Source: Methanococcoides sp. AM1
GTDB taxonomy: Archaea > Halobacteriota > Methanosarcinia > Methanosarcinales > Methanosarcinaceae
Assembly: GCF_900774055.1 (NCBI RefSeq)
Contig: NZ_CAAGSW010000003.1
Location: forward strand, 310,001-374,000
DNA length: 64,000 nt
Reading direction: 5' to 3'
Below the pieces are notes generated by a model. It was given only the letters and a program-made list of their open reading frames with translations. It was not told the DNA's origin and ran no database searches. Within the stretch, counting starts at the first letter, position 1, and every line of letters begins with the position of its first letter. Below, one piece after another: positions 6,868-51,655 of the stretch. Position numbers and translations under genes: made by a program.

Positions 6868-7303
6868 GGTTAGAGTTTAATGTAGATCTTTCTTCTCCTA
6901 ATTTTTCTTATTATTTTATAAGCATTTAATATTATTTTTTTTAAAATCTGCTTATGCGTTTCTTGCAATATTTAATTCATTACCTATACACTCTGCAATC
7001 AAAGAATGTCCGAGAACGTATAGGCAAAATAGAGGTGACATCTACTTTAAATTTAATAAAACTTTAATAAAAATTTTTATATTTCAAACCAATTCCCTAA
7101 AAAATTATATATGTTTATTTTGTTTGGTAACATTTAATCAGTTACAAATTAATAAGAATGTTTGAAATAATATTGCGTAACAACTATATAAGTATATTAT
7201 AATTTTAAATTATATTTTCAAGATTAATTAACGTAATATTATATTATTACAATAAATATCTAAACCTACTTTCACTTTAAAAAACGCTATCAAACTCGTC
7301 ATT

Positions 7304-7843
7304 TTAAATTGTAAGCTTGACTCCAAAAACATCTTCAAAGGTTTGATACTTTTTTCTGGCATTGTAAAGATATTGTCTTACACATTTCTCACCTTTTGCA
7401 CGTGCAAACAGTGCCGTGATCTCTGTGGGTGAAAAAATAGTCTCTATTTGTTTCATGGGAATGGTCTTCAATAGTTCCAGACCATTAATTTCAGGCATTT
7501 CTGCTTCTTTGGGATCTTGAGCATTAAGAGGTGTTCCCGATAATTCTTCTGTATTGTTCTCAGAGAGAGGTCTGGAAAAGTGAGAGATCGTGAGTTCACT
7601 TACCCATTTCCAGTCAGGATCATAGATGTTTGCAGAGAGAATTCCACATTTCGTGCATTTGCCCGCGACAATGAATTCGTCATCAGTCTCATGATAACTG
7701 AGACTTATGATGGTCGATTCACAGTCGCCACATGTACCAATCTCATTTTCTTCCAGCTCATAGGCAGGTACCTTTTTCTCTCCTGCATAAAGTATATTCT
7801 CTTTCAGATCGTAACTATAATTTCGATTATCTGGAGCTGTCAT
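7304..7843 (-). CDS. Uncharacterised protein with a zinc-ribbon-like domain
   Basis: The ATG at 7843 is preferred: it has AAGAGGA 6 bp upstream, whereas the longer frame to 7864 needs a TTG without a site. The 179-aa product has CGDC near residue 36 and CTKC near residue 64, two CxxC knuckles expected to bind one zinc. The C-terminal half (after an acidic linker) is helical, with a KxxRQYLYNARKKY segment that could bind nucleic acid. I do not recognise the family. It is divergent from the DUF2551 gene (118 bp between starts), which suggests a shared control region. Confidence 0.7.
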   Translation of the reverse strand: MTAPDNRNYSYDLKENILYAGEKKVPAYELEENEIGTCGDCESTIISLSYHETDDEFIVAGKCTKCGILSANIYDPDWKWVSELTISHFSRPLSENNTEELSGTPLNAQDPKEAEMPEINGLELLKTIPMKQIETIFSPTEITALFARAKGEKCVRQYLYNARKKYQTFEDVFGVKLTI

Positions 7844-49356: not shown

Positions 49357-50706
49357 TTGGGCGGGGAGTACTACAAGAAAGAAATTGAGACCATGAACAG
49401 GGGCGATCTTGATTCCCTGGTAGAAGAAAAATTACGCTATACAATAGATTATGCTGTAAAGCATTCTTCTTTCTACAGGAAATGGTTTGACAAACATGAT
49501 ATTTCTCCTTCAGGCATTCGGGATCATGAGGATCTGCTGGAACTGCCACTCATCTCCGGTGAACTGATACGAAATAACCAGCCACCAAAGACAGATGATT
49601 TTCGTTTTATGAGTGCGAACTGGGATGAGATATACACGATCCATGAGACCAGTGGCACAAGCGGAACTCCTAAAGCATTTTTCCTCACATGGGATGACTG
49701 GGTACGTTTTGCTGAGAAATACAGCCGCAGTTTTCTATCCCAGGGTTTTGGTAAGGGTGACAGGATGATAATGTGTGCATCCTATGGGATGAATGTCGGT
49801 GCCAACACCATGACACTTTCTGCTCGTGATATTGGTATGGCGGTCATACCGGAAGGAAAATGCACATTTCCAACCCGCGTCCTGGAAAGCTACCAGCCTA
49901 CAGGAATAGTTGCAAGCGTCTTCAAGCTTTTAAGGCTTGCACGCAGGCTCAATACGGAAGGGATCGATCCTAAGGAGACCAGCATCGAAAAACTGATCGT
50001 AGGAGGAGAGAGCTTTGCCGAGGAGAGCAGGACTTACCTGGAAGAATTATGGGGCTGTCCTATCTACAACACCTATGGAAGTACCGAAGGAACGATGTGC
50101 GGGGAATGCACAGAACAGAACGGCCTTCATGTTCCGGAAGATCTTGTCCATCTGGACATATATGATCCATACCGGAAGGAATTCCTTGAAGATGGCGAAT
50201 GTGGAAGGATAGTGCTTACAACGCTTCTGAGTCCTGGTGAAAAGTGCGGTAGCCTTTTGATCAATTATGATACTGAAGACACAACAGTAGTCCAGTCAAG
50301 AGAAAAATGTGCATGTGGCAGGACCCACATGAAGATCGCCACTCCTGAACGTGAGGCTGAAACAAATTGGATCTCAGGTTCACCTTTCAATCGTGTGGAT
50401 GTAGAACGGGGTGTCTTCCAGAGGGAGAATATGGATTACCTGACAGGTGAGTACGAAGCTTTCCTATATGAGGATGAAGACGGAACCTCTATTCTTAAGG
50501 TCAGTATGGAATGCATCGATGAAGTTAATTGTGACAAATCTGTCATCGAAGAGAACTTCCTTAAAGGATTTCTCAATACCATTACTGGTACTAAGGCTCT
50601 CTATGATAATGGAGAACTTGATGTTGATATAAAATTAACCGGCACAGGTGATCTGGAATTCTATAAATTAAAAGGAAGAGCAAAAAGGGTAATCGATCGA
50701 AGATGA
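49357..50706 (+). CDS. PaaK-like adenylate-forming enzyme (coenzyme F390 synthetase family)
   Basis: A 449-aa ANL enzyme of the phenylacetate-CoA ligase/F390 synthetase group. It starts with TTG, 6 nt after GGGGG. Seen: YAVKHSSFYRKWFDKHDISPSGIRDHEDLLELPLIS (family N-terminus), HETSGTSGTPKAFFLTW (P-loop), VGGESF, YNTYGSTEG (A5) and CACGRTHMKI with a zinc-like cysteine pair. Methanogens carry several such enzymes; some adenylylate coenzyme F420 to F390 on oxygen exposure, others activate aromatic acids. Which applies is unclear. No neighbour suggests a pathway. Confidence 0.8.
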   Translation: MGGEYYKKEIETMNRGDLDSLVEEKLRYTIDYAVKHSSFYRKWFDKHDISPSGIRDHEDLLELPLISGELIRNNQPPKTDDFRFMSANWDEIYTIHETSGTSGTPKAFFLTWDDWVRFAEKYSRSFLSQGFGKGDRMIMCASYGMNVGANTMTLSARDIGMAVIPEGKCTFPTRVLESYQPTGIVASVFKLLRLARRLNTEGIDPKETSIEKLIVGGESFAEESRTYLEELWGCPIYNTYGSTEGTMCGECTEQNGLHVPEDLVHLDIYDPYRKEFLEDGECGRIVLTTLLSPGEKCGSLLINYDTEDTTVVQSREKCACGRTHMKIATPEREAETNWISGSPFNRVDVERGVFQRENMDYLTGEYEAFLYEDEDGTSILKVSMECIDEVNCDKSVIEENFLKGFLNTITGTKALYDNGELDVDIKLTGTGDLEFYKLKGRAKRVIDRR

Positions 50707-50882
50707 GTTGATCCCTTTTAGCTTGCACACATCTTCTCAAAGAATGATGAGATTTTCTTTTATATCCCTATTATACCGGCGACATTCAGTACTTTAAGTA
50801 TGCTGCAGTTGCTAAATAAAGAATATGAAATCGATAAAAAAGCTTCATATAAGGTAGCTATGAAAAAAGGTTGTTATGATAA

Positions 50883-50987
50883 ATGAGGCAGGAGCGTTGC
50901 CTATGAGGTGACCTTATTAGGGGCCGGTTGTCAAGATCAAAATTTAATATTGATTGACAAAATGTCCTCACGCACCTGCTCTCATTC
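50883..50987 (+). ncRNA. Candidate structured non-coding RNA (about 105 nt)
   Basis: The ends form a long stem: 50883-50897 (AATGAG-GCAGG-A-GCG) pairs with 50972-50987 (CGC-A-CCTGC-T-CTCATT), 14 pairs with one bulge and one mismatch. Inside, TGAGG pairs with CCTCA, a CCT-TATT-AGG hairpin is possible, and TTGTCAAGATCAA/TTGATTGACAA (50929-50941 with 50951-50961) makes a second long helix. GC-richer than its AT-rich surroundings, in a 544-bp gap between convergent genes. A TATA-like CATATAAGG (about 50851-50859) lies 25-30 bp before its 5' end, favouring the plus strand; the other strand is possible. No known riboswitch consensus recognised. Confidence 0.45.
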
Positions 50988-51250
50988 ACCAATTGATTTT
51001 ACTCTTAATGTTCTTTACGGTCATAATCTACAGCAATTTAAAAATATTCGGAGGAATCTAAATCGTAACTTGAGATGTTAAAATAAACATCTGTAAACCT
51101 AATTAACGAAAAATAAATAACTGATACTGAAATCAAAAAAGTTAATGGTAAATTCAGCTTATGATCGGAAATTTCATTCAAATTAATAAATGAACAAGCA
51201 AGAACATAAACTTACCATTAACTAAAAACTCCTTCAATTAATCCTTATAC

Positions 51251-51655
51251 TCAAAGGAGCTTCTTTCCGGCATTGTCCCCGGAAACACATTCGAAGACTT
51301 CGGTGATCTTCATGACCATAAGAGCTTTTGCAGGGAACTTGTCACCCATTGCCTTTGCACCCGCATAGGCTTTATCATAGTCATCGCCACTTGTCTTGAC
51401 CTCAACATCTCCCTTGATCTGGAAGCAGGCGCCGACCTCGGGGCCCCAGACAAAGATGGATGCCACAGGATTCTCATCCAGGTTCTCCCGGGTCTTCAGG
51501 AAATAGTTGTCCGTGACCCAGATCGTTTCATCATCAACTAACTTGCACATGCCTATAGGGATGACATTTGGCATTCCTGCCTTTGATGCTGTTGCAAATG
51601 GGAAAATTCTTACCTTTGAAAATGCTTCCTTCATATCTTCTGTGAGTTTGACCAT
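51251..51655 (-). CDS. Pyridoxamine 5'-phosphate oxidase-like flavoprotein
   Basis: A 134-aa single split-barrel FMN-binding protein: VRIFPFATASKAGMPNVIPIGMCKLVDDETIWVTDNYFLKT, then PVASIFVWGPEVGACFQIKGDVEV and a KITEVFECVSGDNAGKKLL end. Small members bind FMN or F420 and reduce diverse substrates; the exact reaction is unknown. GGTGA 5 nt before the ATG. Terminator or ncRNA region behind. Confidence 0.88.
   Translation of the reverse strand: MVKLTEDMKEAFSKVRIFPFATASKAGMPNVIPIGMCKLVDDETIWVTDNYFLKTRENLDENPVASIFVWGPEVGACFQIKGDVEVKTSGDDYDKAYAGAKAMGDKFPAKALMVMKITEVFECVSGDNAGKKLL

Follow-up and report, generated by a model that had tools for sequence, protein, structure and literature searches.

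A predicted small RNA gene of Methanococcoides and the multi-copy, genus-specific family to which it probably belongs

A structured element between two convergent genes

In the genome of Methanococcoides sp. AM1, the window (the whole stretch of DNA that was analysed, 64,000 nucleotides long, whose positions are used here) contains an AMP-binding ligase gene (49357-50706, plus strand) and a PNPOx-like gene (51251-51655, minus strand), and a structured element lies between them at 50880-50986. An earlier note had proposed a plus-strand non-coding RNA at this site, located between convergent genes, and the location holds true in this genome. The stretch of about 105 nt also has the terminal hairpin and an outer stem of the size then drawn, with one bulge and one mismatch. 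Folding of positions 50883-50987 gave -35.7 kcal/mol on the plus strand (z -3.67) and -34.9 kcal/mol on the minus strand (z -4.85; -4.7 to -4.9 across runs), and on either strand 0 of 200 shuffled controls reached the native energy, in agreement with the well-paired fold that the note had described.

Read on the minus strand, to which all coordinates in this paragraph refer, the RNA itself would span about 107 nt (50880-50986), with its 5' end near 50986 and its 3' end ahead of a U-run, and its fold including the tail has an energy of -35.6 kcal/mol (z -4.87). The inner helices differ from those first drawn, as the minus-strand fold places four helices, P1 to P4, around a junction. The end-closing stem P1 is formed in the minimum free energy fold by a 5' strand at 50970-50986, which shows compensatory changes in three orthologs and in the wider family described below, and by a 3' strand at 50882-50897, for which compensatory changes are likewise found in orthologs and family. 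P2 pairs GAGG (50966-50969) with CCUC (50905-50908), with a pair probability of 0.77-0.91 in three orthologs, and between P2 and P1 lies a 7-nt bulge, UAGGCAA (50898-50904), which is identical in three orthologs. The P3 hairpin (50928-50960; UUGUCAAUCAA...UUGAU-UGACAA) is shared with the type A RNAs described below and is seen in the match to the covariance model R3, in the fold and in the orthologs, and the P4 hairpin (50910-50925; GGCC...GGUC), which lies outside the R3 structure, is seen in the fold and in the orthologs. A convincing open reading frame is absent from the minus-strand frames of the element, and protein coding on the plus strand was rejected, as the short frame that runs up to the element meets an early stop in genome G006 (read by eye).

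When 60 related genomes were searched at the DNA level, the element was recovered in two of the ten other Methanococcoides species (G001 and G006), at 75-80% identity. Both orthologs lie downstream of the same AMP-binding ligase gene, at a distance of about 165 nt in G001 and of 2.2 kb in G006, where a 584-aa open reading frame stands between, and in neither species does the PNPOx gene adjoin the element. Among the orthologs, P1 shows two-sided changes, for example GAGGCAGGAGCG versus GGGGUAAGAGCG, with the partner positions changed to match. Conservation between G001 and G006 runs about 80 bp past the upstream element (ACTGGTACATGGGGGACAACGTTGTAACCAGT; L003 ~1400-1500, L002 ~1400-1490), in a segment that is absent from the window and possibly represents another hairpin or a pseudogene remnant.

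A family of related RNAs in Methanococcoides

A covariance model of the three type C orthologs, as we call the RNA at 50880-50986 and its two counterparts, gave weak extra matches, in the genome of the window itself as well as in G001 (model R1), and one of these, at G000:C5:72.8 kb, belongs to an array in which four related units stand in tandem. With this array, a DNA search found relatives in 10 of the 11 Methanococcoides genomes. The family RNAs of types A and B are about 98-109 nt long and have a long end-closing stem, which is combined in type A (GGGAG...CUCCC-like end stem) with a UUUGUCAA...UUGACAAA hairpin, and in type B (AUGGGUGUGGGAG...CUCCCACACCCAU) with a pair of inner hairpins and with a GCGAGUU hairpin arm that never varies and has a G-run after it. 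In the tandem array, the final unit (L095 ~7280-7410) carries the family stem and a TATATTA-type leader with an unrelated interior (GGACUUC...GAAGUCC), and is possibly a further type D.

The link between the element and these RNAs comes from a second covariance model, R3, which was built from ten type A sequences and zero type C sequences. Over the 64-kb window, its only match at E up to 10 was 50880-50986 on the minus strand (41.0 bits, E 8.6e-8); over the whole own genome the same RNA was found with an E of 3.4e-6, and the two orthologs scored 46.6 and 44.5 bits. The P2 helix of type C is unlike that of type A. The end-closing stem is kept through compensatory changes across the family: in a 19-sequence alignment, which was fitted to the model structure and is therefore biased towards the model, 12 pairs are changed on both sides in 24 cells, compared with shuffled means of 7.6 and 11.7, and the covariation score was reached by 0 of 500 shuffles, while in MAFFT alignments of types A and B, which were not fitted to the model, covariation is weaker and has the same direction. 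The element is not the isolated RNA of the earlier note: its own genome holds at least 11 such copies (eight loci of the A/C type, of which two are shortened or degenerate, three of type B, and aberrant units besides), and the family extends across the genus.

Types A and C were detected in 6 of the 11 Methanococcoides genomes (E up to 0.2) and type B in 9, and each of the 11 genomes has A/C, B or both. Outside the genus, a search of the order (186 genomes, E up to 0.01, stricter filters that lose weak matches) gave no match to types A and C, and type B gave one marginal match (E 0.09) elsewhere among 112 genomes of the family. R1 matches in other genera (G098, G093, G112 and G033) and R3 matches in G027 and G066 were judged to be due to chance. 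The covariance search of related genomes, which the note had named as a check, was positive, but within Methanococcoides only.

Several copies occupy orthologous positions in three to four species; in four species, for instance, type B is next to genes that by eye are azlCD-like. G007 and G010 have, at the ligase locus, an A-like unit in the orientation opposite to that of the RNA at 50880-50986 (L035 3019-3127, plus; L036 1202-1310, minus), which therefore points to turnover as well. This unit is followed by an apparent tRNA gene. G010 and G007 also have weak R1 matches (18-19 bits), at positions that seem to be orthologous (L068, L069, ~1501-1597). In G005, where the RNA is missing at the ligase locus, the ligase gene has a CRISPR array downstream of it, with the repeat CGGTTTATCCCCACATGCATGGGGAACTC (L037, last 600 bases). 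A shortened type A subtype is found divergently upstream of genes for secreted repeat proteins, by eye NosD- or S-layer-like (L151, L148, L152, L154, L160 and L155, ~1490-1680), and several of these shortened copies then carry TTTGTCCGAAAA repeats about 20 bp apart.

The expectation that the RNA would match no known riboswitch was supported and can be extended to the other members, as Rfam 15 gave no match at the gathering threshold and chance-level matches only at relaxed thresholds. A riboswitch or cis-regulatory leader was also rejected on the grounds that the gene contexts vary in class and orientation. Phage and plasmid records gave no match, and three further patterns were absent from viral contigs; an exact 18-mer in one viral contig (L074) was judged to be chance, its surroundings being of high GC content and unlike the RNA. 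With no Rfam match, and with no paper describing such a family found in the open-licence literature, the RNA family is previously undescribed.

Upstream element, transcribed strand and nature of the element

On the minus strand, a promoter-like element, CCGTAAAGAACATTAA, precedes the RNA at 51005-51020, with ATTAA at the position of a TATA box; it is kept in the orthologs, also in G001 and G006 where the neighbour on that side differs, and its spacing is constant with respect to types A and B. All three types have common elements at a fixed distance before the stem. A CCGTA or CGTAA motif comes first; around -24 to -18 it is followed by TTTTAAC, TATTTAC or ATTAA, and most members of types A and B also carry AAACCAATATA immediately ahead of the stem. 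Matching is closer within types A or B than it is for the type C element, while the distance is the same. In Methanolobus psychrophilus the distance from promoter (BRE and TATA) to start site is about 19-22 nt (PMC5378194), and because this spacing fits, we infer that the middle element might be the TATA position, with transcription starting at the stem; AATATA nearer to the stem may be an alternative TATA box. At the other end, the minus strand after the RNA reads CAACCTTTTTTC and includes a run of TTTTTT (50863-50868), a probable terminator; the T-runs of the two orthologs are shorter. In a scan, sites matching the type A element with up to two mismatches stood only before family RNAs, plus one in G004 by a lipoprotein ORF. 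At that site (L109, G004:C12:50000-66000, ~7780-7830, minus), the type A element and the first GGGAGUG stand directly before the lipoprotein-like ORF (7241-7792, minus), as if this gene had captured an RNA promoter.

It seems doubtful to us that the copies are a miniature mobile element or a dispersed palindromic repeat, in which the stem would be a terminal inverted repeat and any RNA incidental. They do resemble MITEs in being short and dispersed, with inverted-repeat ends and several copies, and the tandem array, a copy number that differs between species, the oppositely oriented unit at the ligase locus of two species, the truncation of some copies and a fragment of an ISL3-like transposase (by eye) that adjoins the G006 copy would all suit such an origin. 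In contrast to MITEs, however, the Methanococcoides RNAs show strand-specific G-U pairing, which is unexpected for a DNA palindrome: the ratio of G-U cells to A-C cells, the latter being would-be G-U pairs on the opposite strand, is 73:38 for types A plus C and 74:5 for type B, and type B folds in the orientation of the upstream element with -28 to -48 kcal/mol versus -15 to -32 kcal/mol on the other strand (alignment consensus -20.0 versus -0.8). In addition, conservation extends past the repeat on one side only, in the form of the external promoter-like element, several copies are orthologously placed in three to four species, most have no linked transposase, and target-site duplications were unseen by non-systematic inspection.

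The same strand preference bears on the original proposal of a plus-strand RNA, which we now regard as improbable. Types A and B clearly prefer the strand that corresponds to minus, and R3, built from type A alone, matches the element on the minus strand; the orientation of the shared upstream element is also that of the minus strand for the RNA at 50880-50986. For type C taken alone the strand is less decisive: the exchanges in P3 and P4 favour minus, but the plus-strand fold is good (z as given above), one P1 pair in G006 is a G-U pair on plus, and the plus-strand energies of the G001 and G006 orthologs are similar to or slightly lower than those on minus. The A-like units of G007 and G010, too, fold better on the opposite strand. 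The TATA-like box to which the plus-strand proposal had pointed (TTCATATAAGG, ~50845-50855) is not conserved at the two orthologous loci, whereas it is the minus strand that carries the U-run and the promoter-like signals that are conserved. The minus strand is therefore favoured by the G-U excess across the family, the promoter-like element at fixed spacing and the U-run after the stem, and is probably the transcribed one. A reading without an RNA gene, in which the element serves its convergent neighbours as a terminator or 3'-UTR structure, would suit the gene arrangement in the window and the minus-strand U-run, but is very hard to reconcile with G001 and G006, which keep the element without a PNPOx neighbour, with other family members between co-oriented or divergent genes, and with a conserved 107-nt fold that far exceeds a terminator.

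In our judgement, the element at 50880-50986 is likely to be a minus-strand gene for a small RNA that belongs, as a divergent member (type C), to a multi-copy family specific to Methanococcoides, a judgement that covers strand, RNA gene and family and excludes the regulatory mode. Family membership, compensatory changes in P1, strand preference, the shared upstream element and restriction to the genus are results of computation, and the predicted small RNA gene is very probably real. The idea of a non-coding RNA gene has held as to structure and a probable lack of coding, by conservation, covariation and folding, and has probably failed as to the plus strand.

Proposed function and comparison with known RNAs

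We propose that each copy would be transcribed from its own promoter, consisting of the CCGTA-type element and the motif at the TATA position about 20 nt before the stem, and would end at the U-run, yielding an RNA whose ends are closed off by P1 and whose variable interior is exposed. With one type of promoter in front of paralogs that differ in their interiors, different partners could then come under one signal, and co-regulated small RNAs with different partners would fit because P1 and the upstream element are constant and the interiors exchanged. On this model, the family probably consists of independent small RNA genes that would act as regulators in trans.

Pairing with mRNAs might be the likeliest mode of action, although we would give it somewhat less than an even chance. 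Within the RNA at 50880-50986, UCACCUC is reminiscent of an anti-Shine-Dalgarno sequence, but P2 takes up part of it, and the orthologs have UACCUC and CACCUC instead; sRNA154 and sRNA41 of M. mazei provide a precedent for anti-RBS small RNAs in the same archaeal family (PMC5867862). When the complement of the conserved type C segment, one segment only, was searched for in the whole genome, no enrichment was seen (23 sites versus 17 for the reversed control). This lack of excess would agree with the second-ranked mode, a common protein bound through the constant stem, which seems to us rather unlikely. The RNAs would then be decoys that use the constant stem or conserved single-stranded parts to titrate one RNA-binding protein, with no mRNA pairing, a possibility to which we give the same low weight. 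A constant P1 and multiple copies under a common promoter-like element would fit dosage by copy number, and the invariant GCGAGUUUGGGG hairpin and second GGGG of type B would fit as well, but the interiors differ strongly between types and no candidate protein was found; Ro60/TROVE is absent from this genome.

The Methanococcoides RNAs share with the Y RNAs, the partners of Ro60/TROVE, an end stem, a variable interior, several paralogs and a U-rich 3' end; they are unlike them in that the TROVE partner is absent here and there is no Rfam Y RNA match. Identity with Y RNAs was rejected, as PF05731 (TROVE) was not found in this genome while the control genome was positive. Also comparable are sRNA154, sRNA41 and sRNA162 of M. 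mazei, intergenic sRNAs of Methanosarcinaceae (reviewed in PMC5867862); sRNA154, a trans-acting regulator of mRNAs, folds stably into two stem loops (PMC5867862). Both these and the Methanococcoides RNAs are intergenic small RNAs of the same family, but the M. mazei sRNAs are described singly and the present RNAs form a paralog family with a shared upstream element. Relatives of M. mazei among the searched family genomes gave no match to the Methanococcoides RNAs.

In the preferred reading of small RNA genes with constant stems and exchanged interiors, we tentatively envisage a genus-specific RNA regulon, with about a dozen paralogs per genome in the species, dispersed and in tandem, with a shared promoter element and without counterpart in other Methanosarcinales, although this picture goes further than we would expect to see borne out in full. 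To our knowledge, archaeal small RNAs with known targets are few, and in archaea it is uncommon for a multi-copy RNA family to be backed by covariation. The family offers a defined set of genes, from methylotrophic methanogens of marine and cold-adapted kinds, whose expression, deletion and interactions can be studied, with alignments that are ready for an Rfam family.
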